Position numbers and translations under genes: made by a program
Notes under the pieces: generated by a model
Seen by the model: the letters and a program-made list of their open reading frames with translations, nothing else
Told to the model about the DNA's origin: nothing
Database searches by the model: none
Shown here: positions 40,701 to 63,730 of the stretch, piece by piece
How positions within the stretch are numbered: position 1 is the stretch's first letter
Layout of the letters: every line of letters starts with the position of its first letter
Source: Nitratireductor aquimarinus
GTDB lineage: Bacteria > Pseudomonadota > Alphaproteobacteria > Rhizobiales > Rhizobiaceae
Reading direction: 5' to 3'
DNA length: 64,000 nucleotides
NCBI RefSeq assembly: GCF_017255295.1
Contig: NZ_JAFKDE010000008.1
Location: 62,001-126,000 of the forward strand

Positions 40701-42428
40701 CTAGCCCGCGAGCAGCTCGATGTGGCGCTGTGCCTGACGAAGGGCGGAGATGAGGCGGTTTTGTCCGCGAACGAGCTGGGTTTTCGCAAAACCAAGCGTG
40801 TTTTCGTCAAAACCGTCCAGATCCGCTGCTTCTGCGATGGAAGGCAGCGGCGGGATCGTCAGGGCCGGATCGTGGCTGAAGCGGTTCACGCGGGTGAAGT
40901 TGATCGGCACGAGGATGCGGGCGAGATCCTGGATCACGGTGTTGGCCGTTGCCCTGTCGATCTTGCCGGACTTGATGCCCGCATAGAAACTGTCGAGCGT
41001 TGAAGCCAGCGCATCGACCGCTTCCTTCGATGCCGACAGGTCAAAGCGGTCGCCGGCCTTGGCCTGGTACTCGGCCACGGTCTGCGCGAATTCCTTCGCC
41101 GTGGCGCGCCAGTCAAACGGCAGGATCTCGGCATTCGCATTGCGAAGAACGGCAAGGAGATAGACCTTGATGTCGCGCAGGAGAATGTCCCTGTCTGCGA
41201 TTTCCAGCGTGTCATTCTCGGTGTGCCAGGCAATGTTGCCGCCGCAGCCGCCCACCGTGTAATAGCCTTTCTCCTCACGCTGGACGTCCGGCATGGTCGA
41301 CGACAGCATCAGGTAGCTGGAAATGCCGATATTGTTGAAGGAGTAATCGCCGGCGCGGTGCGGGCGCTCGCCTTCCATCGTTTTGCCGGCCACTTCGCCG
41401 ATCACTTCAGCGAGGAAGTCTTCGGTTTCGCTCATCCGGCAAAGATTGATGAATTCGGTTGCCCAGCGGCAGCCCGGGCTGTCGCAGTTGACCTGCGAAA
41501 CGGCATTCTGCTCGAGGTCCAGCGCGAAATTGTCGGAGAACCAGGTCGAACCGGCATAGCGTCCGGTGGAGTGGCCGGGCCACCAGCAGATGCGCACCGA
41601 GCGCTTTAGCGAACCGCGATTTTCCCAGAGAACGCGGGCGATTTCGAGCATGCTCGCATCACCGGTTGCGTTGTCACCCACGCCCACGTCCCAGCTGTCG
41701 AGATGGCCGTGCAGGAAGACGTATTTCTCCGGCTCTTCGGTGCCCTTGATGAAGACTTCCGGCAGTTTCGACGTGAACCAGCCCTCTTCCATCTCGGTGA
41801 ACAGCGTGACGCTGCCGCCCTTTTCCGCGATGGCGACCAGCGCCGCGCCGTCATCCTTGTTGACCGCCGCAGCGGCGATCTTCGGCTTGCGCGGCAGGTC
41901 GTCCAGATCCGGCGTGCCCCAGATGCTGGTGCAGATGCCCCAGTGGATGTCGACACCGGGATTGATGCCGATAACGCCGATGGCGCCGATTTCCTCGAAC
42001 TGGGAAACCAGGCCGGGGCTCGCAAAACCTTCGGAAATCACGATCTTGCCGCGTACGCGATCGGCGAGCTCCTGCGTGGTGTCCACCTTTTGCTCGAACA
42101 TGTCGGTGATCATCGCGTTGTGATACGCGCCGACATAGACAAGTTCGCCCGTGACGCCATTGCTGGCGTCGACGCTGTATGCCGGCGGCTTGGCGCGGAA
42201 CGTCTTGCCTTCAGCCTCGACGCGGGCCTGACCGGGCAGGCTGAGATAGAGGCTCGGCTCATGAACCGTGACCTCGACACCGTGCTTGCGCAGCCGTGAG
42301 ACAATTTCGTCCATGCCGCGGTTCACATCGGTGGGGTGCTCGCGCTTGAAAGTCGCAAAGCTCTCGACCAGCCCCCAGGGTTCGTCAAGCGAGACGGAAT
42401 CGAGAATTTGTTTTTCGAGATTGTTCAT
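40701..42428 (-). CDS. M28-family metallopeptidase-like protein with altered active site
   Basis: A 575-residue protein with a PA-like insert (about residues 120-230, ELADRVRGKIVISEGFASPG) and an M28 peptidase fold. Metal ligands are recognisable in LHGHLDSWDVGVGDNATGD (His, Asp), VNCDSPG (Asp) and NIAWHTENDT (His). The segment that should read Glu-Glu (catalytic base and ligand) is WWPGHSTGRYAGSTW here. About 130 C-terminal helical residues follow. ATG 42428 has GGGAGC 9 nt upstream; 42452 is less likely. An IclR-type palindrome lies 28-44 nt before the start, so it belongs to the IclR regulon with the hyu operon. Confidence 0.87.
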   Translation of the reverse strand: MNNLEKQILDSVSLDEPWGLVESFATFKREHPTDVNRGMDEIVSRLRKHGVEVTVHEPSLYLSLPGQARVEAEGKTFRAKPPAYSVDASNGVTGELVYVGAYHNAMITDMFEQKVDTTQELADRVRGKIVISEGFASPGLVSQFEEIGAIGVIGINPGVDIHWGICTSIWGTPDLDDLPRKPKIAAAAVNKDDGAALVAIAEKGGSVTLFTEMEEGWFTSKLPEVFIKGTEEPEKYVFLHGHLDSWDVGVGDNATGDASMLEIARVLWENRGSLKRSVRICWWPGHSTGRYAGSTWFSDNFALDLEQNAVSQVNCDSPGCRWATEFINLCRMSETEDFLAEVIGEVAGKTMEGERPHRAGDYSFNNIGISSYLMLSSTMPDVQREEKGYYTVGGCGGNIAWHTENDTLEIADRDILLRDIKVYLLAVLRNANAEILPFDWRATAKEFAQTVAEYQAKAGDRFDLSASKEAVDALASTLDSFYAGIKSGKIDRATANTVIQDLARILVPINFTRVNRFSHDPALTIPPLPSIAEAADLDGFDENTLGFAKTQLVRGQNRLISALRQAQRHIELLAG

Positions 42429-42455
42429 GCGCGAAGCTCCCATTTGTTTCATTCA

Positions 42456-42618: not shown

Positions 42619-43434
42619 TCAGCCGGCGGAGCGGGCTTTGCTCTCGGCTTCGTCCTTGTCGGAACGGTGCAGCGACAGGCGCTGCGAAATTTCACCGGCT
42701 GCTGCCAGCACGGCCTGCATGTAAGCCTCGCGGCGCTCTTCATCGAAGCGCACGACTGCGCCGGCAACGGAAATCGCTGCAATAATGTTGCCATCGGCCG
42801 CAATGATGGGGGCCGCAACGGAGAAGGCACCTTCATCGAGATCGTTAATCGCGACATTGCATCCGTTCGCGCGAATGCGTTCCAGCGCTTGCCGGAGCTT
42901 TTCACGGTCGGTGATCGTGTAGGGGGTAAAAGCTTCCAGCGGGCTGGCGAGCACCTGGTCGATGATGCTCTTCTCGCTGAATGCTAGAATGCAGAGCGAA
43001 CCGCCACCGGCATGAAGCGGGCCGTTGCGTCCCGCCTGCGCGAAAAGGCGAACTGAATGCAGGCCCTCGCGCGTCGCAACAACGAGCGAGCGCAATCCGT
43101 CGCGCACGACGAGATTCACGTTCTCGGAGGTCCGGTCGCGCAGCGCATCCATCACAGGCCGCGCAGCAGACAGGAGGCTGCCTTCGCGGCCCACGCGTTC
43201 CCCCAGCACGCCAACCCGATAGCCGAGCGAGTAGACGGCGCGCTCCGGATCCCGGAACACGAAGCCGCGCTCTTCGAGCGTATGCAGCAGGCGGAAGACA
43301 ATGGACTTCGTCAGGCCAAGCGATTTTGCGAGCGCTGTGACCCCCTGATCCGGCTGGTCGGCGAGTGCTTCAAGGACAAGCAATGCGCGGTCGACAGCAG
43401 CGATCCTGTAGTCCTTGGGGGCTGTCTCGTTCAT
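42619..43434 (-). CDS. IclR family transcriptional regulator
   Basis: A 271-residue regulator. The winged helix covers residues about 8-75 (GVTALAKSLGLTKSIVFRLL), and the GAF-like effector domain extends to about 255 with the usual SEKSIIDQVL and FDEERREAYMQAV blocks. IclR proteins commonly control importer/enzyme operons for organic acids and amino compounds. It is divergent from the racemase/Dpp/Hyu operon and upstream of the M28 gene, and both promoters carry the same palindrome. This argues for a repressor of the whole region. Confidence 0.92.
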   Translation of the reverse strand: MNETAPKDYRIAAVDRALLVLEALADQPDQGVTALAKSLGLTKSIVFRLLHTLEERGFVFRDPERAVYSLGYRVGVLGERVGREGSLLSAARPVMDALRDRTSENVNLVVRDGLRSLVVATREGLHSVRLFAQAGRNGPLHAGGGSLCILAFSEKSIIDQVLASPLEAFTPYTITDREKLRQALERIRANGCNVAINDLDEGAFSVAAPIIAADGNIIAAISVAGAVVRFDEERREAYMQAVLAAAGEISQRLSLHRSDKDEAESKARSAG

Positions 43435-43558: not shown

Positions 43559-44314
43559 ATGCGTGTTGCTTATGTCGTACCGGGGCCGATGTCCAAGGGG
43601 CCGATGGGGCTGAAGGAGATGAAGCGGCGCGAAGCGCTGCTGAATGCGTGGGCATTCACCGGCACCGAAGTGTCGGTCATTGATGTTGTGGACGGACCAG
43701 CATCAATCGAATCCGCTTATGAAGAGGCGCTGTGCATTCCTGCCACGATCGACGTGATCATGCGTTGCGAACGTGACGGGTTTGACGCTGCGATCATCGG
43801 CTGTTTTGGCGATCCGGGCCTGGAGGCCGCGCGTGAACTGACGACCATGCCGGTTGTTGGCCCATGCGAAAGTTCGCTGCTTCTGGCTGCCAGCCTGGGG
43901 CACAAGCTCTCCGTGCTGACCATCTTCGAAAGCATGGTTGCCGGGCAGGAGCTGCTTGCCTACCGGGCGGGTGTCCTTGAAAAGCTCGCTTCCGTGCGGG
44001 CCACGGGCATTCCCGTTCTGGAGCTGATGAAAAACCCGGATCAGACGCGCGAGAAGCTGATCGAGACGGCAACGCTTTGCGTGAAGCAGGACCGTGCCGA
44101 CGCTCTGTTGTTCGGCTGCATGACGATGTCGTTTCTGGATCTTGCGGACGAGGTGTCCGCCGCCGTGGGCGCGCCGGCTATCAATGCCGGCAAGGCCGCG
44201 CTAAAGCACGCGGAAACGCTGGTTTCCATGGGGCTCTCCCACTCCAAGACAGCCTATCCCATGCCCGCCAAAATGCGGGCCGGCCAGTCCTTCGAGGCGC
44301 TGCGGGTGGCCTGA
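43559..44314 (+). CDS. Asp/Glu/hydantoin racemase family protein
   Basis: A 251-residue racemase. The two catalytic Cys are visible in IIGCFGDPGLEAAREL (residues about 78-93) and LLFGCMTMSFLDLAD (about 181-195). The fold is that of hydantoin, aspartate and glutamate racemases with the cofactor-free two-base mechanism. ATG 43559 follows GAGGGG by about 7 nt; earlier in-frame starts lie in the operator region. As first gene before a Dpp-type importer and HyuB/HyuA, epimerisation of a hydantoin or related cyclic amide is the most likely job. Confidence 0.88.
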   Translation: MRVAYVVPGPMSKGPMGLKEMKRREALLNAWAFTGTEVSVIDVVDGPASIESAYEEALCIPATIDVIMRCERDGFDAAIIGCFGDPGLEAARELTTMPVVGPCESSLLLAASLGHKLSVLTIFESMVAGQELLAYRAGVLEKLASVRATGIPVLELMKNPDQTREKLIETATLCVKQDRADALLFGCMTMSFLDLADEVSAAVGAPAINAGKAALKHAETLVSMGLSHSKTAYPMPAKMRAGQSFEALRVA

Positions 44315-44363: not shown

Positions 44364-46016
44364 ATGATACCAATGCGCAGAGCGGTTGTCTCGACCGCGT
44401 TTCTCGCCCTTCTTGCCGGGACGCCGGCATTTGCCGGCGATCAGATCAGAACCATCGACCTGTTCACCCGCCCGCAGGCGGCGCAGCCACAGGAATTCCA
44501 GTCGATCCAGCTCATTGCGCAGGAGTGGCGCAAGCTCGGTCTCGATGTGAATGTGCGGGTCATGCCCTGGGAGCAGATGTCGGACGTCGTCTGGTATCAG
44601 CGCGACAACTGGGACGCCACGGCCTGGCAGATGGTCGGTCGACCCGAGCGCTCGGACCCCGATGAGATCGTCTTTAACCTGTTCCATTCGACCACGGCGG
44701 ACAAGGGTTACAATTTCATCGGTTACCTGAACCCGGAATACGACACGGTCGTTGAAGCCGAGCGGGTCGAGATCGACGAAGCCAAGCGCAAGGAGCTGAT
44801 CGACAAGGCGCAGGAGATCCTCGCCGCCGACCAGCCCAACATGATGCTTGTTCATCCCAAACAGACATTCGCGTTCGACAAGACGGTCTGGGACCCGGCC
44901 TCGGTTGTCGAGCAGAGCGGCATTGGCATTCGCAACACGTGGACGTTCATGTCGCTGACGCCGGTTGGCGAACAGAAGGACATCATCCTCAACTCCGGCG
45001 ACAATGTGCAGGCGATCAACCCGCTCTACATCTCCGGCGGCGTGGACAGCTGGGTGTTCGAACTGGTCTATGACCGGCTCGTGCGTGTCGGTCCCGATGG
45101 TCTGCCCAAGGCCTGGGCGGCCGAAAGCTATGAGTGGAAAGACGACAAGACCATCGCGGTGACGCTGCGCGAGGGCATGAAGTGGCATGACGGCGAGCCT
45201 GTGACGCCGGAAGACGTCAAATTCTCCTTCGAGACCGCCGTCAGCGGTGAAGCGCCGATGTATGCGCCATTCGCCACTAATATCGAGAATATCGCGATTG
45301 ACGGTTCCACGATCACCTTCACGCTCAAGCAGCCGGCGGCGTCGTTCGTCACGTCGAGCCTGGCGAAGATCAATCTCATTCCCAAGCATGTCTGGGAGCC
45401 GATCATCGCCGATCTGAAGACGAAGGAAGAGAACGCGGAAAGCTATCAGGAAGAGACACCCATCGGTTCCGGGCCGTTCAGGTTCGAGCGCTGGCTCACC
45501 AATGAGGAAATCGTTCTTTCCGCCAACAAGGATCACTTCAACGCACCGAAGGCCGAGCGCTGGATTCTGCGCATCGTGCCGAATGTTGAAGCGGCGCTGG
45601 GCATGCTGCGCTCCGGCGAGATCAACTTCCTCGCCGAGTTCTCCGGTGATCCGCAGGTGCTGTTGCAGGCAGCCGAGCAGGATGGCGATCTGGAAACCGT
45701 TTCGACCGTCGAGATGGGCTTCCGTTATGTCGCCTTCAACAACCGCCGTCCGCCCTTCGATGATCCGGCATTCCGCCGCGCGCTTTCTTCGGCCGTGGAC
45801 CGTCGCCTGATCGTCAAGGCTGCCTATCGCGGTTACGCCGAGCCTTCCAACTCCGTTGTCTCTCCCGCGCTGGGCTTCTGGCACAATGAAGCGGTGGTCG
45901 AAGGCTTCGAGGCTGGCCACGATGTGGCGGTGAAGATCCTTGAGGATGCCGGCTACACGCTCGAGGGTGACCGCCTGCATTATCCTGGCGACCAGAAGGA
46001 AACGCTGGCCGAATAA
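44364..46016 (+). CDS. Peptide-type ABC binding protein with circularly permuted family-5 order
   Basis: A 550-residue protein with signal peptide (RRAVVSTAFLALLAGTPAFA). Residues about 28-197 correspond to the part that is C-terminal in DppA/OppA: IDLFTRP, IAQEWRKLGLDVNVRVMPWE, GYNFIGYLNPEYD, ELIDKAQEILAADQPNMML. Residues about 205-535 then give the normally N-terminal and middle parts: NVQAINPLYISGGVDSWVFE, PKAWAAESYEWKDDKTIAV, LREGMKWHDGEPVTPEDVKF, PIGSGPFRFERW, AVKILEDAGYTLEGD. The frame is continuous and the total length is normal, so it is neither duplicated nor truncated. GAGGAG lies 8 nt before the ATG. It supplies ligand to the adjacent DppBCDF-type importer; the ligand may be a peptide, hydantoin or oxoproline derivative. 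Confidence 0.85.
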   Translation: MIPMRRAVVSTAFLALLAGTPAFAGDQIRTIDLFTRPQAAQPQEFQSIQLIAQEWRKLGLDVNVRVMPWEQMSDVVWYQRDNWDATAWQMVGRPERSDPDEIVFNLFHSTTADKGYNFIGYLNPEYDTVVEAERVEIDEAKRKELIDKAQEILAADQPNMMLVHPKQTFAFDKTVWDPASVVEQSGIGIRNTWTFMSLTPVGEQKDIILNSGDNVQAINPLYISGGVDSWVFELVYDRLVRVGPDGLPKAWAAESYEWKDDKTIAVTLREGMKWHDGEPVTPEDVKFSFETAVSGEAPMYAPFATNIENIAIDGSTITFTLKQPAASFVTSSLAKINLIPKHVWEPIIADLKTKEENAESYQEETPIGSGPFRFERWLTNEEIVLSANKDHFNAPKAERWILRIVPNVEAALGMLRSGEINFLAEFSGDPQVLLQAAEQDGDLETVSTVEMGFRYVAFNNRRPPFDDPAFRRALSSAVDRRLIVKAAYRGYAEPSNSVVSPALGFWHNEAVVEGFEAGHDVAVKILEDAGYTLEGDRLHYPGDQKETLAE

Positions 46017-46129: not shown

Positions 46130-47107
46130 ATGTCCCATTTGAAGGCGATGGCCAGCAGAGCGCTGCAACTCGCTCTCGTCCTCTGGGCGGTCGTCACGAT
46201 CCTGTTCCTCATGTTCCGCCTGATGCCGGGCAATCCGATGGCGGCCTATATCGACCCCACCTTCACTGTGGAACAGCAGGAAGCGCTGATGGCGCAGTTC
46301 GGCCTCGACAAGCCATTGTGGGAGCAATACCTCATCTATCTCGGCAATCTTCTGCAGGGTGAGCTGGGCCAGAGCTTTCGCTATCGCGAGCCCGTGGCCG
46401 AGCGGCTGATGACGCTCCTGCCCAACACGCTCATTCTCACATTCTCTTCGCTTATCGTGGCCTACACGTTCGGCATTCTTGCCGGCGCGTATCTTGCCTG
46501 GCGGCGCGGAAGCGTCGTGGAGAACACGGCAATTCCGCTGGTTCTTACGACGCGCGCCATGCCTGAATTCTGGCTCGGGATGGTGCTGCTTGCCGTGTTT
46601 TCCTTCTGGCTGGGCTGGTTTCCAGCCGGCGGCACACGGCCGGCCGGCGCCAGCTATGACAGTCTGTGGGCGCTTTACACCTCGCGGGAGTTCCTGAGCT
46701 ATCTGGCGCTCCCGGCCCTGACACTGGCGATTTACAGTCAGGGACTGCCGCTTCTTCTGATGCGCTCGAACATGCTGGATGTGATGAAGGAAGACTTTGT
46801 CACCATGGCCCGCATCAAGGGACTGTCCAACTGGTCGGTCGTGGTGCGCCATGCCGCGCGCAACGCGCTGTTGCCGGTCATGACATCCTTCGCCATCGCC
46901 GTCGGCTACCAGCTTCAGGGAAATGTGGTCGTTGAATCCGTTTTCTCCTGGCCGGGGCTTGGACGCGAACTCGTCAATGCCGTCTCGGCATCCGACTATC
47001 CGCTGGCGCAGGGCGCGTTCCTGATGATCGCAGTGGTGGTCATCCTGATGAACCTCATCGCCGACCTTCTGTATTCCCTGCTCGACCCGAGGATCAGCCA
47101 TGCTTGA
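46130..47107 (+). CDS. Dpp-type ABC permease (DppB)
   Basis: A 325-residue permease with six predicted helices, the DppB N-terminal block LMFRLMPGNPMAAY, and the coupling loop TMARIKGLSNWSVVVRHAAR. ATG 46130 is chosen over ATG 46085 because AAGGGAAG lies upstream and homologues begin at this point. It overlaps dppC by 8 bp. It forms the channel of the importer served by the permuted binding protein. Confidence 0.92.
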   Translation: MSHLKAMASRALQLALVLWAVVTILFLMFRLMPGNPMAAYIDPTFTVEQQEALMAQFGLDKPLWEQYLIYLGNLLQGELGQSFRYREPVAERLMTLLPNTLILTFSSLIVAYTFGILAGAYLAWRRGSVVENTAIPLVLTTRAMPEFWLGMVLLAVFSFWLGWFPAGGTRPAGASYDSLWALYTSREFLSYLALPALTLAIYSQGLPLLLMRSNMLDVMKEDFVTMARIKGLSNWSVVVRHAARNALLPVMTSFAIAVGYQLQGNVVVESVFSWPGLGRELVNAVSASDYPLAQGAFLMIAVVVILMNLIADLLYSLLDPRISHA

Positions 47108-47996
47108 TACCACGCTTCCCAGGCCGGGTTTCGTCGCGCGCTTCTTTCGCAGCCTGCGTCTGCCTTTGAACGACCCCTTCGCCGTTGCCGGCCTCGCCAT
47201 CTATGCGATCTTCATCCTGACCGCGATCTTCGCCGACGCCATTGCGCCATACGATCCGACGGAGATCCTCTACACGCCCAATTACGATCTGGCCGCCGAT
47301 CTGCGTCCGGGTGAAGACGGCTTCATTCTCGGCACCACCAGCCTTGGCCGGGATATCTTCTCGCAGATTGTTTACGGCACGCGTTCCGCGCTGCTTATCG
47401 GACTGACAGCGGCCTTCATGGTGGCGCTGATCGGATCGATCGTCGGGCTGGTTTCCGGCTATTTCGGCGGCTGGGTGGACGCGCTCCTGATGCGGCTGGC
47501 AGATGTGGCGTTCGGCATACCCTTCCTGCCCTTCGTCATCGTGCTTGCCGCTTTCCTTGAACCGTCGATCTGGAACGTCGTCATCGCCATGGCGCTCGTT
47601 CTGTGGCGCGACACGGGGCGGGTCATCCGCAGCCAGGTCCTGACGTTGCGGTCCCGCAGCTATGTGGATGCGGCAAGGGTTTCAGGCTCTTCGGATTTCA
47701 AGATCATTCTGCGGCACATCGCGCCGAACATCCTGCCGCTTTCCTTCCTTTACGGGTCCATCGCCATCGGCTGGGCCATTCTGACGGAGGCGTCGATTTC
47801 GTTTCTCGGCTTTGGCGATCCCCAGTCGATCAGCTGGGGCTACATGCTGCAGGACGCCTTCGCCAGCCAGGCGCTCGCGAAGCAGGCCTACTACTGGTTC
47901 GTGCCTCCCGGCGTCTGCATCATCCTCGTCGTGTCTGCGGGCTTTTTCATTACCCGTGGCTATGAAAACCTCCTGTTTCCGAAGCTTGGCCGATGA
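47100..47996 (+). CDS. Dpp-type ABC permease (DppC)
   Basis: A 298-residue permease with the N-terminal segment FAVAGLAIYAIFILTAIFAD, the LGTTSLGRDIFSQIVYGTR block typical of DppC (here GTTSLGRDIFSQ), and coupling loop YVDAARVSGSSDFKIILRHI. The C-terminal region [17 protein letters not shown] is usual. Its stop overlaps the following ATPase start by 4 bp. Confidence 0.92.
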   Translation: MLDTTLPRPGFVARFFRSLRLPLNDPFAVAGLAIYAIFILTAIFADAIAPYDPTEILYTPNYDLAADLRPGEDGFILGTTSLGRDIFSQIVYGTRSALLIGLTAAFMVALIGSIVGLVSGYFGGWVDALLMRLADVAFGIPFLPFVIVLAAFLEPSIWNVVIAMALVLWRDTGRVIRSQVLTLRSRSYVDAARVSGSSDFKIILRHIAPNILPLSFLYGSIAIGWAILTEASISFLGFGDPQSISWGYMLQDAFASQALAKQAYYWFVPPGVCIILVVSAGFFITRGYENLLFPKLGR

Positions 47997-49012
47997 CTGA
48001 AACACTGCTTTCCGTTCGTGATCTCAAGGTCAGCTATCAGGTTGGCAAGGGTTCAATCGATGCTGTCGATGGCGCGAGTTTCGACGTGCCGCGTGGCTCC
48101 ATCGTCGGTCTTGTTGGCGAGTCCGGCTGCGGCAAAACCACCGTCGCCAGAGCGCTGACAAGGGTGATCGCCGACAATGCGAGCATTACCGGCGGTCAGA
48201 TCCTGTTCGACGGACAGGATATCGCGGCACTGCCGGAACGTGAGATGAATGCGCTGCGCTGGCGCGACATCGCGTTCATTCCGCAAAGCGCGATGAACTC
48301 GCTCGATCCCGTCTACACGGTCGAATATCAGCTCAATGAGGTGCTGCGGCGACGCGGTGGGCTGGGGCGCAGGCAAGCGCGGGCGCGATGCGAAGAACTG
48401 TTCGAGATGGTTGGCATCGAGGCCGGCAGGCTTGGCGACTATCCGCATCAGTTTTCCGGCGGCATGCGCCAGCGCGTGGCCATCGCTCTGGCCCTTGCGC
48501 TCAATCCCAAGCTGGTGATTGCCGATGAACCGGTGACGGCGCTCGATGTGATCGTTCAGCGGCAGATCCTCGACCAGCTGCGCGAACTGCAATCGATGCT
48601 GGGCATTTCGGTGATCCTCGTCACGCATGACATCTCGGTCGTCGCCTATGTCTGCGACCGGACGGTGGTGATGTATGCCGGGCGCATTGCCGAAGCCGGC
48701 CCGATGGACGCCGTTCTGATGGAGCCGTCGCATCCCTACACAATGGGACTGCGCAATGCGTTTCCCGATCTGAAAGGAGCGGCAAGCGGTGTGCTGACGC
48801 CCATTGAGGGCGCGCCGCCCAATCTCGCCTTTCCGCCACCGGGGTGCCGCTTTGCGCCCCGCTGCCCGTTCGCAGTGGAGACCTGCACCACGCAGCAGCC
48901 GGCGCTCGGCATGGTCGCGCCTGACCACCGTGTCAGCTGCCACCGGGCGGATGAAGCCGCGAAGCTGCGGCAGGAGGCGGCCCGCACCGAAACATGGCTC
49001 GCAGACGCATGA
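47993..49012 (+). CDS. Dpp-type ABC ATPase (DppD)
   Basis: A 339-residue ATPase with Walker [17 protein letters not shown]-loop [16 protein letters not shown], signature [15 protein letters not shown], Walker [14 protein letters not shown] and H-loop [13 protein letters not shown]. The C-terminal oligopeptide-type extension has the cluster [14 protein letters not shown], which in DppD homologues binds an iron-sulfur cluster. It partners with the next ATPase. Confidence 0.93.
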
Positions 49013-49020
49013 GGTTGGCT

Positions 49021-50001
49021 GTGTCGAAACCACCCAAGCCGCTGGTCTCCGTCAAGGATGCCCAGCTCCATTACCGGGTCGGCAGCGCCTTTTCGGCGAT
49101 GCGTGGCCACTCCTCCGTCGTCAAGGCGGTGGACGGTGTGACATTCGAGATCCAGAAGGGCGAGAGTGTCGGCCTTCTGGGAGAGTCCGGCTGCGGCAAG
49201 ACCTCCATGGGACGGCTGCTTCTCAAGCTTGAAGAGGCGACCGGCGGCGAGATCGAGTTCGCCGGCGATGCGCTTTCCGGTCTGAAGGGACCGGCGCTCA
49301 AGCGCTATCGCGCCAAGGCGCAGCTCATCTTCCAGAACCCGTTCGAAGCGGTGAACCCGCGCTTCACGATCCGTGCCACACTGGCCGAACCGCTGGAGAA
49401 TGCGGGCATTCCGGCAGCCGAACGTGAAGGGCGCATCATCGAAGCGTTGGAACTCGTGCGCCTGCCACAGCCACAGCAATATCTTGACCGGTATCCGCAC
49501 CAATTATCGGGCGGCCAGTTGCAGCGCGTGGTGATGGCGCGGGCGCTCATCCTGCAACCGGACTTCGTGGTTGCGGATGAACCGGTTTCGATGCTCGACG
49601 TGTCGGTGCGCGCAGGCGTTCTGAACGTGTTTCGCGATGTGCGCGACCGGCTGAACCTGACTGCGATCTACATCAGTCACGACCTGGCCCTTGTGCGGTA
49701 TGTCTGCGAGCGGACCATCGTCATGTATCTGGGTCGCATCATGGAAGATGGACCGACCGAGGACATCGTCCACGAGCCGCTGCACCCATACACCAAGGCG
49801 CTGGTGGCGGCCGTTCCGGTACCGCATCCCGACCAGAGCCATGATCCGCTTCCCATTGGCCGTGGCGCGCCTGATCCACGCAATCCGCCTTCGGGTTGCG
49901 TGTTCCGAGACCGTTGCCCGCTCGCTTTCGACCGTTGCGCCAAAGAAGCGCCGGCGCTGCGTCCGGCGGGCAGCCGCAAGGTCGCCTGCCATCTTTTCTG
50001 A
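49021..50001 (+). CDS. Dpp-type ABC ATPase (DppF)
   Basis: A 326-residue ATPase: Walker [17 protein letters not shown]-loop [14 protein letters not shown], signature [15 protein letters not shown], Walker [15 protein letters not shown]-loop [13 protein letters not shown], and C-terminal Cys motif [18 protein letters not shown] 49021 has GAGG 6 nt upstream; ATG 49009 would give an ATGA overlap with dppD but has no ribosome site. It ends 28 nt before the quinone-oxidoreductase-like gene. Confidence 0.9.
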
Positions 50002-51063: not shown

Positions 51064-52890
51064 ATGCTTCAATCCTCGCCATCCACACCACCGCCCGAGT
51101 GCGACATGCCGGTCTGCGACCCGGTTTCGCTGGAGATCATTCGCGGCGCAATCGCCGCCGCGCAGGCCGAGATGGAAGCGCTTCTGGAGCGCACCGCGAT
51201 TTCCGCGTTTATTCGCGAGAAGAAGGACTTTTACACCGCGCTGTTCGATGCAGACGGCGTGATGGCCGTTGGTTCGATGGTGCCGATCTTCGGCGACATG
51301 ACCGGTCCGGTTTTCGAAAAATTTCCCGACGATACGATGCAGCCGGGCGACCTCTACTGGTACAATGACTGCTACGGTTCGCGCGGTGCGGTTTCGCACT
51401 CAAACGATCAGGTTCTGCTCGCGCCGGTGTTCCGCAATGGCCGACGCTGCGCCTTCGTGATGAGCTGGGCGCATTTTGCCGATATCGGCGGCATCCGTCC
51501 GGGCTCGATCAGCCCGGATGCGACCGAGATCTTTCAGGAAGGCATCATTGTTCCCGTTACGAAGCTGATCGATGCGGGGCAGACCAACGAGGCCGCGCTG
51601 TCGATCTTCCATCGCAATTCGCGTTTTCCCGAACAGAGCAATGGCGACATGCGCGCCCTGATGGCGTCCGTCGATCTTGGTGTTCGGCGTGTGGGTGAAA
51701 TCATCGACCGGTTCGGTGCTGATGTGGTTGCCGATGCATTCGACCAGCTGCTTGCCCGCACACGTCGTCTGGTGCGCACGAAACTGGCCGAGACCTTCGA
51801 TTACGGAACGCATAGTTTCACCGATGCCATCGATGGCGACGGGCACGGAAACGGGCCGTTCAAGATCCGTTTTTCGCTCTCCCGCGAGAAGGGCAGCGAC
51901 GGGGAAGACCGTTTCACCTTCGACGCAACCGAGACAGACGATCAGGCCCCTGGTCCGGTCAATTATCTCATGAACGAGGGTGTGCCGGGCATGGCGCTCG
52001 GCCTCTATTATCTGGGCGGTGACCCGGCGCAGGTCTGCAATGCGGGTGGCCCGAACGCCATCGATGCGGTCAAGCTGCGCGAAGGTTCGCTGCTTGCGCC
52101 GCGTTTCCCGGCACCTCTTGGCATGCGCGGACTGACGGCGATGCGCGTCATCTCCGCCATGAGCGGGCTGGTGAATGTTGCTAAAGGCGAAGCGCCGGCT
52201 GCCAATTCGGCCTATGTGATCAGCATCATGCGCGGCAATTTCCGCAATGAAGCGGGCGAGCTGGAGCGTTTTCTTCTGGCAGACGGGATTGGCGTCGGAT
52301 ACGGCGCGCGCCCCGATGCCGATGGCATCGATGCGGTCTATTTCGTCGCGCAGGAAAACTATCCGGTCGAATTCCTCGAACTTGGTTATCCGGTGCGGTT
52401 GCGCACCTATGGTATCGCGCAGGACTCTGGCGGCGCAGGACGCCACCGCGGTGGTTGCGGCATCGTGCGCGAATACGAGGTGATGGCCGAGGACGCGGTG
52501 CTGGCGGTTCGCATCGACAGTGTGAAGAACCCTCCCTGGGGCATCGATGGGGGTCAGGGTGGCGGTTCCGGCCGGGCCATCGTCAATCCGGGAACCGACC
52601 GGGAGCAGGTTCTGGCACCGCTCTCGGACGGCAACAGGCTGGTGCGCGGCGACATTCTGCGCATCGAGACCGGTGGGGGCGGCGGCCATGGCCATCCCTT
52701 CGACCGTCCGGTCGGCAAGGTGATCGAGGATGTTCTGGGTGGGTTCGTCAGCCCTGAAGCAGCCAGAAGCCTTTATGGCGTGGTGATGGAAGGCAACCGG
52801 GTGGACGCCGATGCCACCGTTGCCGCCCGCGCCGAACGTCCTGCCCACCGTCGTTTCCATCGTCAGGAGTATGTCGATGTCCTCAGCTGA
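51064..52890 (+). CDS. hyuB: HyuB subunit of ATP-dependent hydantoinase/5-oxoprolinase
   Basis: A 608-residue HyuB-family protein. CDPVSLEIIRGAIAAAQAEM near residue 18 is the standard start of the domain; FGDMTGPVFEKFP, NDCYGSRGAVSHSNDQVLLA and SWAHFADIGGIRPGS supply conserved Asp/His residues; AGRHRGGCGIVREYEV and GGGGGHGHPFDRP are late signatures. With HyuA it opens a cyclic amide using ATP. AAGGAAAG precedes ATG 51064; ATG 51106 is an alternative nearer the domain start. It overlaps hyuA by 14 bp. Confidence 0.92.
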   Translation: MLQSSPSTPPPECDMPVCDPVSLEIIRGAIAAAQAEMEALLERTAISAFIREKKDFYTALFDADGVMAVGSMVPIFGDMTGPVFEKFPDDTMQPGDLYWYNDCYGSRGAVSHSNDQVLLAPVFRNGRRCAFVMSWAHFADIGGIRPGSISPDATEIFQEGIIVPVTKLIDAGQTNEAALSIFHRNSRFPEQSNGDMRALMASVDLGVRRVGEIIDRFGADVVADAFDQLLARTRRLVRTKLAETFDYGTHSFTDAIDGDGHGNGPFKIRFSLSREKGSDGEDRFTFDATETDDQAPGPVNYLMNEGVPGMALGLYYLGGDPAQVCNAGGPNAIDAVKLREGSLLAPRFPAPLGMRGLTAMRVISAMSGLVNVAKGEAPAANSAYVISIMRGNFRNEAGELERFLLADGIGVGYGARPDADGIDAVYFVAQENYPVEFLELGYPVRLRTYGIAQDSGGAGRHRGGCGIVREYEVMAEDAVLAVRIDSVKNPPWGIDGGQGGGSGRAIVNPGTDREQVLAPLSDGNRLVRGDILRIETGGGGGHGHPFDRPVGKVIEDVLGGFVSPEAARSLYGVVMEGNRVDADATVAARAERPAHRRFHRQEYVDVLS

Positions 52891-54919
52891 ATCTTCCCTC
52901 GCCATCGCTGTCGATATTGGCGGCACCTTTACCGACATCTCCCTTCTCGACCGGTCGAGCGGAAAAGTGTGGCGGGCCAAGACGCCCAGTGTGCCGCAGG
53001 ATCCTTCCGAGGCCTTTCTGACCGGCATAAGACTGGCGCTCGCGGATGCGGGCGCGGAGGCGAGCGAACTTGCCCGCGTGCTGCATGGCACGACCGTCGC
53101 CACCAACATGATACTTGAGGGCAAGGGCGCGCGTACGGCGCTTGTCACCACACGCGGCTTTCGCCACGTGCTCGCCATCGGCCGGCAGGACATCCCGCGC
53201 AAGGCCAATCTCTACAACTGGGTGAAGCCCGAGCGCCCCGTTCCCGCATCGCGGATCGTCGAGGTGGATGAACGGCTTGCGGCAGGCGGCGCGGTTCTGG
53301 AAAGGCTTGACGAAGACAGTGTCAGGCAGGCGGCGAGCGCCATTCGCACCATGAATGTGGAAGCCGTTGGTGTCTGCCTCATGCATGCGTTCGCCAATCC
53401 CGCGCATGAAAGGCGGGTGGCCGAAATTCTGCGGGAGGAACTGCCGGACATTGCGGTGACGATCTCGACCGATGTGCTGCCCGTGGTGCGTGAATATGAG
53501 CGTTCGCTCACCACTGCGCTGAATGCTGCGGTGATGCCGGGGGTCACAAGCTATGTTGGCCGGCTGGAACGCCGGCTCGAAGATGAAAAGGTCGCCGCCC
53601 CGCTGCTTCTGATGAAGTCGAATGGCGGAGTGGCCGGTGCGGCGGCAATCCGCGAAGCGCCAGCGCTTACGGCGTTGTCGGGGCCAGCGGCCGGGGTGGT
53701 CGGTGCACGCGCGATTGCCGCCGCATGTGGCATTCGCGATCTGATCACCGTCGATATCGGCGGAACCAGCGCCGACATTTGCCTGATCAAGGATGGCAGG
53801 ATCGACCTCACGCAGCATGGCAAGGTCGGCGACTGGCCGCTGCCGCTGCCGATGGTGGACATGGTGACGATTGGTGCCGGCGGCGGATCGATTGCCGCCG
53901 TCGAGGACGCGACCCTGACCGTGGGGCCACGCAGCGCCGGCGCAAGGCCGGGGCCTGCGGCCTATGGCCATGGGGGGCAGGATGCGACCGTCACCGATGC
54001 CCATGTGGTGCTTGGTCATCTGCCTGAGAAGCTGCTGGGCGGGCGCATGGGCCTTGATGTCGAGGCCGCGCGCGAGGTGGTGCGAAAAGGGGTCGCCGAA
54101 CCGCTGGGCCTGTCGCTCGAGGCAGCAGCGCGCGGCGTTCTCCAGATCGTCGACAACCACATGGTTGGCGCTGTTCGTGTGGTGTCCGTCGAGCGCGGGC
54201 ACGATCCGCGTCACTTCACACTGGTCCCCTTCGGCGGGGCCGGCCCGCTGCATGGCTGCGCCCTTGCGGAGCTGTTGGGCATTTCGCGCGTGATGTTCCC
54301 GCCCGCGCCGGGTGTGCTTTGTGCCGACGGGCTGCTTGCAGCCGATCTCAAGGCCGAGTTCAGCCGGACCCTGCCAAAAGCCGGGGCGATTGATGTCGTG
54401 ACCGCGAATGGCATTTTCGGGGAGCTTGAACAGCAGGCCGATGCGTGGCTGACGGTGGAGGGCGTTCCCGAAGACAAGCGGCAGACGGATCGCGTGGCGC
54501 TGTTGCGCTATTACGGGCAGGGTGGCGAAATAGCGATCCCCTGGGCGGAAACGCGCGAAGCCGTGGAAGAGGCTTTCACCGCCGAACACAAGGCGCTCTA
54601 CGGTTTTGCGCTTGATGCGCCCATCGAACTGGTCACGCTGCGGGTTGAGGCCACGGGTCTGACATCGGAACCGCCGCGTGACGGGCTTCAACCGGGTGGT
54701 TCCCTTGAAGCTTACGATCATGCGCCGGTGCAGTTTGCCGATGGAACCCGTGACGTTCCGCTGATCGACCGCAACACAATCGGGGCCGGGACACGCTTCG
54801 ATGGACCGGTTATCCTCACGCAGCTCGACACAACGATTCTCGTGCCGCCGGGCTGGACGGGCGAGGCGCATGCGGTTGGAGCGATCATCCTCACACGACA
54901 GGAAGGAACGGCTGCATGA
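52877..54919 (+). CDS. hyuA: HyuA subunit of ATP-dependent hydantoinase/5-oxoprolinase
   Basis: A 680-residue HyuA-family protein of the acetate/sugar-kinase/actin fold. AVDIGGTFTDISLL near the N terminus is the phosphate-1 loop, LHGTTVATNMILEGKGA follows, and VDIGGTSADICLI and IGAGGGSIAAVEDATL are the central nucleotide motifs; FGGAGPLHGCALAE lies later. ATG 52877 has AGGAG 7 nt upstream; 52871 is too close to it. The pair hydrolyses hydantoins, 5-oxoproline or related rings with ATP. Acetone-carboxylase-type activity is unlikely without the third subunit. Confidence 0.92.
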   Translation: MSSAESSLAIAVDIGGTFTDISLLDRSSGKVWRAKTPSVPQDPSEAFLTGIRLALADAGAEASELARVLHGTTVATNMILEGKGARTALVTTRGFRHVLAIGRQDIPRKANLYNWVKPERPVPASRIVEVDERLAAGGAVLERLDEDSVRQAASAIRTMNVEAVGVCLMHAFANPAHERRVAEILREELPDIAVTISTDVLPVVREYERSLTTALNAAVMPGVTSYVGRLERRLEDEKVAAPLLLMKSNGGVAGAAAIREAPALTALSGPAAGVVGARAIAAACGIRDLITVDIGGTSADICLIKDGRIDLTQHGKVGDWPLPLPMVDMVTIGAGGGSIAAVEDATLTVGPRSAGARPGPAAYGHGGQDATVTDAHVVLGHLPEKLLGGRMGLDVEAAREVVRKGVAEPLGLSLEAAARGVLQIVDNHMVGAVRVVSVERGHDPRHFTLVPFGGAGPLHGCALAELLGISRVMFPPAPGVLCADGLLAADLKAEFSRTLPKAGAIDVVTANGIFGELEQQADAWLTVEGVPEDKRQTDRVALLRYYGQGGEIAIPWAETREAVEEAFTAEHKALYGFALDAPIELVTLRVEATGLTSEPPRDGLQPGGSLEAYDHAPVQFADGTRDVPLIDRNTIGAGTRFDGPVILTQLDTTILVPPGWTGEAHAVGAIILTRQEGTAA

Positions 54920-58422: not shown

Positions 58423-60075
58423 TCAGTTGTCGGCGCTCTCGATCTGACGGGTGGAGAGCACCTCTTCGAGCCAGCCAAGCCGCATCTCCGGCACGGATTT
58501 GAGCAGGAGATCGGTGTAGGCGTCGAAGGGAGGGCTGAGCGCCCCGGATTTCGGTCCGAAGCGGACGAGGCGGCCGCGATGCATCACGGCGACGCTGTCG
58601 GCGATGGCGCGCACGATAGCGATGTCATGGGTGATGAAAATGTATGACAGGCCCCGTTCGCGCTGCAGTCCGGTCAGCAGTTTGAGGATGCCGTCCGCCA
58701 CCAGCGGATCGAGCGCCGAGGTGGGCTCGTCACAGATGATCAGGTCCGGTTTTGCCGCCAGCGCACGGGCGATGGCCACACGCTGTTTCTGCCCGCCGGA
58801 AAGCTCTGCGGGATAGCGGTCGATGAAGCCCTGGCCCATCTCGATCTGATCGAGCAGCTCACCAACGCGCCGGCGCTGTCCGGCACCGCGCAGCCCTTCG
58901 TAAAAGCGCAGCGGACGGCCGATGATCTGACCGACGGTCTGGCGCGGATTCATGGCCGTATCGGCCATCTGGTAGATCATCTGCATGCGGCGCAATTGCT
59001 CGCGCGTGCGGTGCTTCAGCTGCGGCGGCAGTGTTTCGCCATCGAAGCGGACGTCGCCCGTATTCGGGGCGAGGAGGCCGGTCGCGACACGGGCAAGCGT
59101 CGATTTGCCCGAACCGCTCTCGCCAACGATGGCGAGCGTCTGCCCTCTGGGCACGTGAAGGGACACATCGTGCAGAACGGGTGTCGGGCCATAGGCGGCG
59201 TTGATGCCCGCCATTTCGAAGAAGCGGTCCGACTGCTCCGCAGCCTCGGTGTGGCGCACCGCACGCACATTCACCAGATCGCGCGTGTAGTCTTCATCCG
59301 GGTTCTCGATGATCTTGCGCGTGTCGGCATGTTCCACGGTTTCCCCATGGCGCAGCACCATGATGTCGTCGGCCACCTGCGCGACAACGGCAAGGTCGTG
59401 CGTGATGTAGAGGGCCGCCGTACCGGTCTGCTCTATGGCGCTCTTGATGGCAGCAAGCACGTCGATCTGGGTGGTCACGTCGAGCGCCGTGGTGGGCTCG
59501 TCGAACACGATCAGTTCCGGCTCGGGGCAAAGCGCCATGGCTGTCATGGCGCGCTGAAGCTGACCGCCGGAAACCTGATGCGGGAAGCGGTTGCCGAAGG
59601 TTTCGGGCTCCGGCAGACCCAGCAGGCCGAAGAGGCGCACCGCACGGGCGCGCGCCTCGTCTGCGGTCGCGAGGCCATGGCGCAGCGTGGCCTCGATCAC
59701 CTGATCCATGAGCCGGTGGGCCGGATTGAACGAGGCTGCCGCCGACTGCGAGACATAGCAGACCCGCGTACCGCGCACGCCGCGTATGCCCCGGCGGCCG
59801 AGCCCCAGAATGTCTTCGCCATCGAGAAGAACCCTGCCGCCGGTGATCTTCACGCCGCCGCGCCCATAGGCGAGTGCGGCGAGGCCGATGGTGGACTTTC
59901 CGGCACCTGATTCACCGATCAGGCCAAGCACCTTTCCGCGTTCCAGATCGAAGCTCACGCCCTTGACGATCTCGATTTTGCGCGGCGGCTCGCCGGGTGG
60001 GTAAGCGGTTGCGCCGATGCGCAGATCGCGCACCTGCAACAGGGGCCTTTTGTCGGTTTCGAGGGGCTTATCCAT
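58423..60075 (-). CDS. Fused Dpp-type ABC ATPase (DppD-DppF in one chain)
   Basis: A 550-residue protein with two complete ATPase domains. Domain 1 (about 8-265): GLIGESGAGKSTIGL, signature VSGGQLQRAMTAMAL, LIVFDEPTTALDV. Domain 2 (about 290-540): AIVGESGSGKSTLARV, LSGGQKQRVAIARAL, LIICDEPTSALDP. Fusion of the two peptide-importer ATPases is common in alphaproteobacteria. The Cys-rich tail of separate DppD/DppF proteins is absent. It overlaps the dppC-type gene by 8 bp. Confidence 0.92.
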   Translation of the reverse strand: MDKPLETDKRPLLQVRDLRIGATAYPPGEPPRKIEIVKGVSFDLERGKVLGLIGESGAGKSTIGLAALAYGRGGVKITGGRVLLDGEDILGLGRRGIRGVRGTRVCYVSQSAAASFNPAHRLMDQVIEATLRHGLATADEARARAVRLFGLLGLPEPETFGNRFPHQVSGGQLQRAMTAMALCPEPELIVFDEPTTALDVTTQIDVLAAIKSAIEQTGTAALYITHDLAVVAQVADDIMVLRHGETVEHADTRKIIENPDEDYTRDLVNVRAVRHTEAAEQSDRFFEMAGINAAYGPTPVLHDVSLHVPRGQTLAIVGESGSGKSTLARVATGLLAPNTGDVRFDGETLPPQLKHRTREQLRRMQMIYQMADTAMNPRQTVGQIIGRPLRFYEGLRGAGQRRRVGELLDQIEMGQGFIDRYPAELSGGQKQRVAIARALAAKPDLIICDEPTSALDPLVADGILKLLTGLQRERGLSYIFITHDIAIVRAIADSVAVMHRGRLVRFGPKSGALSPPFDAYTDLLLKSVPEMRLGWLEEVLSTRQIESADN

Positions 60076-60901
60076 CGCCGCGCCCTCCTTTCAGGCTTGA
60101 TGTGCGCTTCAGGAGCCAGTCGACCACCAGATTGATGGAGACGGTGAGCACGGCAATCGCCGCGCCCGGCACGAGCGCTGCGGAGACACCGAAAATGATG
60201 CCATCCTTGTTGTCCTTGACCATGCCGCCCCAGTCGGCGGTTGGCGGCTGAATGCCGAGACCGAGAAACGAGAGGGTGGAGATGAACAGAACCGCAAAGG
60301 CGAGCCGCAAACCGAACTCCGCCAGAAGCGGGGTCAGGGCATTGGGCAGGATTTCGCGGAAGATGATCCACAGCGTGCCTTCGCCCCGCAGCCTTGCGGC
60401 CTCCACGAAGTCCATCGTGGACAGGTCGAGCGCCAGCGCGCGGCCAAGCCGGAAGACGCGGGTGGCGTCGAGCACGGCCATAACCAGAATGAGCACGGTC
60501 ATGTTCTGGGGCAGCGCGCTCAGAACGATGAGGGCGAAGATCAGCGTCGGGATCGACATCAGGAGATCGTTGATGCGCGACAGACCGACATCGACCGGTC
60601 CGCGCATGGCGGCAGCGGCGAAGCTCAGGAACGAGCCGAGCGAGAAGGCCAGCACCGTGGAGACGAAGGCGACGAAGAGCGTCGTGCGTGCGCCGTAGAT
60701 CAGGCGGGACAGGAGATCCCGGCCAAGATTGTCGAGCCCGAGCAGGTATTCCGCACTGGATGGGGCCCAGGGATCGCCGACGATCTGGTTTTCGCCATAG
60801 GGCGCAAGCCACGGCGCAAAGAGGGCGCAGATCACGGCAACGGTGATACCCGCCATGCCGATCCACGCGGAGACCGGAATAGAGCGCAGCGTCTGTTTCA
60901 T
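60068..60901 (-). CDS. Dpp-type ABC permease (DppC), second importer
   Basis: A 277-residue permease with six predicted helices, LGLDNLGRDLLSRLIYGART near the N terminus and coupling loop MDFVEAARLRGEGTLWII followed by FREILPNALTPLLAE. It overlaps the DppB-type gene by 4 bp. Together with its partner it forms the channel of the importer served by the binding protein at 61966-63567. Confidence 0.91.
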   Translation of the reverse strand: MKQTLRSIPVSAWIGMAGITVAVICALFAPWLAPYGENQIVGDPWAPSSAEYLLGLDNLGRDLLSRLIYGARTTLFVAFVSTVLAFSLGSFLSFAAAAMRGPVDVGLSRINDLLMSIPTLIFALIVLSALPQNMTVLILVMAVLDATRVFRLGRALALDLSTMDFVEAARLRGEGTLWIIFREILPNALTPLLAEFGLRLAFAVLFISTLSFLGLGIQPPTADWGGMVKDNKDGIIFGVSAALVPGAAIAVLTVSINLVVDWLLKRTSSLKGGRGDG

Positions 60902-61899
60902 CGCGGGTGCCTCAGGCGGGGATTGGCGAGGACGGAGAGAATGTCCGCGGTCATGTTCAGGAGAATGTAGATGGCGGCGAACACCAGCCCGCAGGCCTGC
61001 ACGACGGGCAGGTCACGCACGGTCACGGCATCGACCATGTATTGCCCCATGCCCGGGTAGACGAAGACCACTTCGACCACCACAACACCGACGATGAGAT
61101 AGGCGAGGTTGAGCGCCACCACATTGATGATCGGCGCAAGCGCGTTTGGCGTTGCGTGACGCAGGATGGCGCGCCAGCGGCTGAGCCCCTTGAGCGCGGC
61201 CGTTTCCATATAGGCCGAATCCATCACGTTGATGATCGCTGCGCGGGTCATGCGCATCATGTGGGCGATGACCACGAGCACCAGCGTTGCAACGGGCAGG
61301 GCGATGGTCACGAGTTTCGCGCCAAGCCCCATGCTCGCATAGACGGTCGCGGGGAAGGCGGCGACGGGGTTTTTGACCACCAGCCACAGGATCAGCAGAT
61401 AGGCGACGAAGAACTCGGGCAGCGACACGGCGGCGAGCGAGAACAGGTTGATGAGCCTGTCGATGAGGCGGTCGCGATAAAGCACGGCGATGAGGCCAAG
61501 CCCGATGGACAGGGGCACCGCGATGATAGCGGCTGCGCCGGCGAGCAGCAGCGAGTTGCTGAGCCGGCTGCCGAGCTGCGCGCCGATATCCTGGCCACTG
61601 GCCCAGGAGTGCCCGAAATCGCCATGCAGAAGGCCGGCGACCCAGTCGAGATAGCGCGCATAGGCGGGCGCATCGAGGCCCAGTTCCGCGCGGATATTGG
61701 CCACGGCCTGCGGTGTTGCGGCCTGTCCGAGATAGGTTGTTGCGAAGTCGCCGGGCAAAGCTTCAATCCCGCCGAAGATCAGCAGGGAGCTGGCCACGAG
61801 GAGGACAAGGCTCAGAAGGAGCCTTCCGACGATGCGGGTTGTCAGCGGATAGCGGCCATGCAGCCGCGCGAGGGGAAATACCGGAATGTGATCATTCAT
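60898..61899 (-). CDS. Dpp-type ABC permease (DppB), second importer
   Basis: A 333-residue permease. FGGIEALPGDFATTYLG replaces the usual LxPGDP block, GHSWASGQDIGAQLGSRLSN follows, and the coupling loop is METAALKGLSRWRAILRHAT. It lies 66 nt after the binding-protein gene, across an imperfect hairpin. Confidence 0.91.
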   Translation of the reverse strand: MNDHIPVFPLARLHGRYPLTTRIVGRLLLSLVLLVASSLLIFGGIEALPGDFATTYLGQAATPQAVANIRAELGLDAPAYARYLDWVAGLLHGDFGHSWASGQDIGAQLGSRLSNSLLLAGAAAIIAVPLSIGLGLIAVLYRDRLIDRLINLFSLAAVSLPEFFVAYLLILWLVVKNPVAAFPATVYASMGLGAKLVTIALPVATLVLVVIAHMMRMTRAAIINVMDSAYMETAALKGLSRWRAILRHATPNALAPIINVVALNLAYLIVGVVVVEVVFVYPGMGQYMVDAVTVRDLPVVQACGLVFAAIYILLNMTADILSVLANPRLRHPR

Positions 61900-61914
61900 G
61901 TGTCTGATTGGTCG

Positions 61915-61952
61915 GACGCGCGCAGGCTGCTGGAAGGAGCCCGCGCGGCGTC
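61915..61952 (-). other. Imperfect intercistronic hairpin after the second Dpp-type binding-protein gene
   Basis: GACGCGCGC (61915-61923) pairs with GCGCGGCGTC (61943-61952) with one bulged G, around a 19-nt loop. Position and lack of a T-run match the hairpins after the other binding-protein genes. Confidence 0.45.
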
Positions 61953-61965
61953 TCCGTTTCAGGGA

Positions 61966-63567: not shown

Positions 63568-63730
63568 CCGAGCGATTTTCCTTCGTTTTTCTTGTCGTCG
63601 TGCGGTCCCGGCGGCGATTTTCATGGCAAAACCGTCCCCGGTGCATGAAATGCGGACGGGGATTCGCGCTGGGATTGTTTGAGGTGGGACGTGTGTAGGA
63701 GGGTTGCGATTGCGTCTCAATTTCGTATGT

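Follow-up and report, generated by a model that had tools for sequence, protein, structure and literature searches.

The gene at 44364-46016 on the forward strand of the window (the whole stretch of 64,000 nucleotides analysed here) very probably encodes a functional family-5 substrate-binding protein that is a natural circular permutant. The last third of its chain stands ahead of the first two thirds. In prokaryotes, nutrient receptors of this family are very common, and the order of their chain is regarded as fixed. The natural permutation put forward in a preliminary description of this DNA is upheld by the order of the profile matches, by a rotation test, by a conserved family of homologues and by a tree that groups the permuted proteins in a single clade. 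The gene and the parts of its product are as follows; C-block denotes the segment found at the C-terminus of normal family-5 proteins, and N-block their N-terminal and middle segment.

44364..46016, + strand: gene for the circularly permuted substrate-binding protein of family 5, product of 550 aa (order tests, profile matches)
44364..44435, + strand: signal peptide, residues 1-24, without lipobox (sequence, with the cleavage site read by eye; lipobox scan)
44442..44963, + strand: C-block, residues 27-200, here first (limits approximate, set by hand)
44964..44975, + strand: seam between the old C-terminus and the old N-terminus, about residues 201-204 (projection)
44976..45986, + strand: N-block, residues 205-541, here second (profile matches)
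45987..46013, + strand: short C-terminal tail past the new cut, residues 542-550 (alignment)

The open reading frame is whole at 550 aa, the ribosome-binding-like motif AGGAG lies 7 bases 5' of its first ATG (as read by eye), and the N-terminus of the protein is signal-peptide-like, ending in AFA, in agreement with the earlier description of the frame, length and signal peptide as intact. The motifs quoted in that description are all found in the protein in the order given. Its placement of the protein end directly at ILEDAGYTLEGD was mistaken, as 14 further residues follow, RLHYPGDQKETLAE. The sole Pfam match above cut-off is PF00496 (SBP_bac_5), with an E-value of 4.2e-70 and 237 bits against a cut-off of 32.4. 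The 12 NCBIfam families listed (Opp4A, NikA, GsiB, DppA and OppA among them) all stayed far below their curated cut-offs, Opp4A scoring 136 bits against 650 and DppA 98 against 1005. An anionic ligand, suggested by the arginines R93 and R96, which are invariant in an alignment of 22 rows, was considered but went no further than an idea, because these residues are not invariant in the wider protein set.

The match of PF00496 to the protein falls into two stretches, one of them pairing residues 249-538 with positions 3-285 of the 368 in the profile; the single collinear match that would have refuted the permutation did not appear. In a phmmer search against solved structures the best match, AppA (1xoc), was found in two pieces with the order swapped, residues 205-532 corresponding to AppA 22-345 and residues 47-171 to AppA 375-495. 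Considering this swapped block order, we term the 550-aa protein a permuted variant and not an ordinary SBP_bac_5 member. A profile made from normal-order proteins only (57 proteins, 495 positions), so built to avoid bias, also matched in two pieces without overlap, positions 9-330 on residues 203-534 with 257.6 bits and positions 343-477 on residues 41-181 with 84.9 bits, leaving positions 331-342 and the old ends (1-8 and 478-495) unmatched.

When the 550-aa chain was rotated in steps of 2 residues and scored with this normal-order profile, the best rotation started near residue 199 and gave one collinear match over profile positions 11-476 with 351.0 bits, as compared with the 257.6 bits of the best single stretch in the unrotated chain. 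Twelve normal proteins, all drawn from the 57 training proteins of the profile and rotated in steps of 6 residues, had their best score at the native ends in 11 cases and at most one residue away in the remaining one. Among solved structures, the C-block profile alone matched 46 distinct PDB sequences, including the 229-residue fragment 3o6p, and the matched stretch lay toward the C-terminus in all 46. Searching a permuted profile against solved sequences gave a best stretch spanning both blocks in none of the best 60 of 111. In the window genome, all other family-5 ORFs that match both blocks have the normal order, and several match one block only. The window itself contains a control in the form of a second Opp-type transporter gene set at 58423-63720 (- strand), with a normal-order family-5 protein at 61966-63720.

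The seam, located by projection, measures 2-7 residues with a median of 3 in all 73 distinct permuted proteins. At the other end of the swap, the permuted chain finishes with a helix ending in ...EDAGY followed by a short hairpin strand (LHYP), and it starts with the strand IRTIDLF; the chain of normal proteins runs uninterrupted at this site. By projection, most normal proteins are shorter there by about 11 residues (median of 63 proteins, range from 14 shorter to 29 longer), i.e., the permuted proteins carry about 11 extra residues around their new ends. The hairpin at the cut site is long in two normal-order proteins, L044 and L047. Extrapolated from the profile matches to OppA (1b05), the cut corresponds to about OppA residue 357, and if, as we assume, domain III of OppA comprises residues 271-486, this places the cut within lobe 2. 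Accordingly, the permutation would have shifted the chain ends out of lobe 1 and into lobe 2.

We propose a single ancestral event in which a linker of few residues would have connected the old C-terminus with the old N-terminus, and in which the chain would have been interrupted anew in the hairpin that follows the ...EDAGY helix. Such an event would shift the termini between the lobes and leave the fold, the pocket and the contacts with the permeases as in normal proteins. The permuted protein would then work in the manner of DppA and OppA, being exported, closing on its ligand and passing the ligand to the permease pair.

An AlphaFold2 model of the full-length protein, made with 22 sequences, reached a pLDDT of 82.5 and a pTM of 0.78, with values mostly above 75 in the C-block. 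By name, all 50 Foldseek matches listed were binding proteins of the peptide, metal, sugar or opine type or solute-binding proteins belonging to transporters of these kinds, and we take them to be family-5 members. These 50 alignments covered 223-408 columns with TM values of 0.33-0.55 and rmsd values of 3.0-9.6, the model being matched in part, as expected of a sequential aligner. The C-block folded alone, with 9 sequences and an alignment shallower than that of the full-length protein, reached a pLDDT of 53.7, a poor model that is consistent with the C-block being part of a lobe. Because the C-block folds poorly when taken alone, it is the full-length model and the sequence that support its fold.

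The same order was found in many other genomes. Scanning genome contigs yielded 22 loci with 30-88% identity, all of them permuted, of which the lowest two, both outside the Alphaproteobacteria, belong to a member of the Thermomicrobiales (Chloroflexota, 55%) and to a SAR324 bacterium (30%). A plasmid search added more matches that cover most of the protein in one piece, many of which are haloarchaeal with about 30% identity, and 12 of the 15 plasmid records inspected proved to be permuted and 3 normal (11 of 14 permuted when the locus H1 is left out). The circular and complete plasmid pOM-1 of Nitratireductor sp. OM-1, possibly the same strain as the window genome, encodes an identical protein. 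Over all 153 loci, searched with block profiles from permuted proteins, there were 88 permuted ORFs, corresponding to 73 distinct sequences, 63 normal ORFs and 4 with one block only. Permuted proteins occur in Alphaproteobacteria, SAR324, Chloroflexota and haloarchaea, and the order is conserved in the collected homologues over several lineages. Two-piece plasmid matches were also considered as further permuted cases; those in L084 (Cytobacillus), L095 (Roseivivax) and L096 (Fusobacterium) turned out to have the normal order. Since these joined matches were normal on inspection, the 69 plasmid records in which at least 80% of the query is covered do not represent a count of permuted proteins.

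An assembly rearrangement in one genome could in principle create a false permuted ORF. This explanation is rejected because homologues in other genomes share the order, in every locus of the genome scan and in most of the plasmid loci besides H1; the identical protein on a complete circular plasmid and the low dN/dS in both blocks (see below) also argue against it, and we regard its probability as negligible.

For the phylogenetic analysis, separate alignments of the N-block and the C-block were made for 73 permuted and 57 normal proteins and then concatenated in a uniform order. The permuted proteins formed one clade with none misplaced, supported in FastTree by values of 0.993 (both blocks), 0.916 (N-block) and 0.904 (C-block), and by an ultrafast bootstrap of 100 in the unrooted IQ-TREE tree, in which many deeper branches of both the permuted and the normal group are weakly supported. 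Since the tree is unrooted, the direction from normal to permuted rests on the normal order being the rule of the family. Independent permutations that recurred at one weak spot in the fold, instead of one event, would agree with the patchy presence over two domains of life, and a separate permutation is described for another class of binding proteins in the available part of PMC4990184. On the other hand, the 73 permuted proteins fall into one clade with a support of 100, their seam is nearly constant, and the N-block alone and the C-block alone give the same split, all of which makes repeated permutation very unlikely in our judgement and favours a single origin.

Duplication followed by trimming is the textbook route to circular permutation. 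Here, a gene duplication with trimming of the ends is a plausible route, and no intermediate of it was found among the loci collected. The gene might then also be the remnant of a tandem duplication, in which two partial genes became fused while a neighbouring normal copy is the functional one. This idea draws on that textbook route and on the extra residues projected at the ends; against it stand the two profile pieces without overlap, the purifying selection on both blocks, and the flanks fetched for 33 loci, some of them short, in which no second family-5 ORF of at least 200 aa was found. In the same 33 loci, again with some short flanks, the normal binding protein of the window gave no match when used as query. 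Among 15 chosen pairs, dN/dS reached values up to 0.18 in the C-block and up to about 0.30 in the N-block, pointing to purifying selection on both. Overall, duplication is compatible with a working permuted protein as the way in which it originated, but it fails as an account of a non-functional remnant, which we hold to be extremely improbable.

The permuted gene heads a complete Dpp/Opp-type ABC set with two BPD_transp_1 permeases and two oligo_HPY ATPases, and its neighbourhood is composed as follows:

40701..42452, - strand: M28-family peptidase
42619..43434, - strand: IclR-type regulator, likely of the operon
43559..44314, + strand: Asp/Glu/hydantoin racemase family gene, directly upstream
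46130..47107, + strand: ABC permease 1 (BPD_transp_1, BPD_transp_1_N)
47100..47996, + strand: ABC permease 2 (BPD_transp_1, OppC_N)
47993..49012, + strand: ABC ATPase 1 (ABC_tran, oligo_HPY)
49021..50001, + strand: ABC ATPase 2 (ABC_tran, oligo_HPY)
51064..54919, + strand: homologues of hydantoinase B (51064-52890) and hydantoinase A (52877-54919), likely processing enzymes

An M20 gene, so named from the OM-1 annotation, follows 3' of the hydantoinase A gene. In each of the 33 loci tested, the permuted gene shares its operon with a permease gene, and all four ABC genes are present in 30 of them, the sequences of the other three (L004, L009 and L014) being shorter and ending sooner. By similarity to the window genes, the M28 peptidase is found nearby in 21 of the 33 loci, a count to which the annotation adds two M28 genes, the IclR regulator in 22 and the Asp/Glu racemase in 15. 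Because the racemase, hydantoinase A and B, M20 and M28 genes adjoin the transporter, we guess at an amide-type cargo, i.e., a small amide or N-blocked amino-acid compound, a suggestion that is tentative and rather more doubtful than probable. The haloarchaeal permuted operons L092 and L093 adjoin genes for a D-aminoacylase, a dipeptide epimerase and an M81 peptidase, neighbours that hint at a modified dipeptide or an N-acyl amino acid as cargo. In another haloarchaeal permuted operon (L089:10580-11857), a transposase gene lies between the permease and ATPase genes, and L085:6932-12465 has the unusual order binding protein, ATPase, permease, permease, ATPase.

The distribution across taxa was followed with a profile of 16 permuted proteins, for which a match had to span both blocks at thresholds of 1e-50 or 1e-80. 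In the large samples, scoring was confined to the few top candidates of each genome, making the counts of spanning matches lower bounds, and the samples overlap, the window genome being present in the family, order, class and 398-genome phylum samples. At the level of the family, spanning matches were found in at least 19 of 297 genomes, at that of the order in at least 11 of 199 and at that of the class in at least 11 of 289 (one more match being truncated at a contig end); in the phylum groups to which the SAR324 and the Thermomicrobiales genome belong, they were found in at least 6 of 52 and at least 3 of 301 genomes, respectively. With a narrower profile, only the match of the window genome begins before profile position 189 among the best-scoring matches listed for the phylum sample of 398 genomes. 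Among the five same-genus genomes in the matches listed, the window genome only has a spanning match. This patchy presence, together with the plasmid locations, suggests horizontal transfer of the permuted gene.

With the family-5 substrate-binding proteins AppA, DppA, OppA and NikA (PF00496), the permuted protein shares both blocks, the signal peptide and the Dpp/Opp-type operon; it differs from them in the reversed order of the blocks and in its ends, which lie at about OppA residue 357. Family 5 (SBP_bac_5) presumably corresponds to cluster C of the binding proteins. According to the available part of PMC4990184, TpMglB-2 (Tp0684) is an ABC substrate-binding protein that is circularly permuted in nature and has kept glucose binding, and together with relatives in several lineages it was proposed to form a 'Type Ic / Cluster Bc'. 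In that protein, strands located near the N-terminus of EcMglB are placed near the C-terminus, and there is a fourth crossing between the lobes (PMC4990184). The window protein, likewise, is a binding protein whose circular permutation is natural. However, TpMglB-2 is of type I/cluster B, whereas the window protein belongs to family 5 by its PF00496 and AppA matches; the segment moved is a different one, the cut in the window protein probably lying within lobe 2; and the TpMglB-2 group is mostly membrane-tethered, whereas the window protein has no lipobox (compared with the available part of PMC4990184). A model study on the same theme, as far as its accessible part goes, also concerns permutation in the evolution of the binding-protein fold, but it used protein halves of another class, while the protein described here is whole, natural and inherited.

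The statement in the preliminary description that no class of this kind has been described stands for family 5 in the literature searched, but not for binding proteins in general, as TpMglB-2, of another class, has been published (PMC4990184, available part). The literature search, whose coverage excluded most subscription papers and bioRxiv preprints, found no permuted family-5 protein, and none is described in the accessible parts of PMC3454389, PMC7815116, PMC2588589, PMC11478963, PMC8050072, PMC9815098, PMC4168480, PMC5087393 and PMC12137417.

For TpMglB-2, tethering to the membrane was proposed as a possible reason for the permutation, most members being membrane-tethered (PMC4990184, available part). 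An adaptation of this kind would be in line with the lipobox found by a crude pattern in 8 of the 73 distinct permuted proteins, which are exactly the 8 haloarchaeal members fetched and which bear the anchor on the permuted N-terminus, where it would hold lobe 2. Against it, the same pattern detected no lipobox in the remaining 65 distinct members, the window protein included. Because 65 of the 73 members are without a lipobox, tethering is not the general reason for the permutation, and we consider it an unlikely explanation of the family.

A wider reading, to which we give a little less than even weight, is that one ancient permutation founded a separate oligopeptide-type branch, which spread horizontally among bacteria and haloarchaea. 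Export and the archaeal lipid anchor would act on lobe 2 of these proteins and the lobe that is held would be reversed, perhaps altering opening or docking. A conserved permuted branch over two domains of life constitutes a natural experiment, in which the same family and the same transporter type are combined with other chain ends, and it allows testing whether opening, docking and export depend on where the termini and the lipid anchor are placed. The role of the position of the termini was raised for TpMglB-2 and left open there (PMC4990184, available part).

The permuted proteins are also under-described by collinear profile matching: in all 12 permuted plasmid loci inspected, the gene is annotated merely as 'ABC transporter substrate-binding protein'. 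A distant permuted subgroup (L116, L152 and L153) has an N-terminal extension of tens of residues ahead of the C-block. Two differing permuted paralogues per genome are present in G502, G537, G459, G488 and G1245, one of the copies in G488 having an in-frame TAA within the matched stretch. In a metagenome-assembled genome (L019:4929-6585), the permuted gene is frameshifted, by either a sequencing error or decay.
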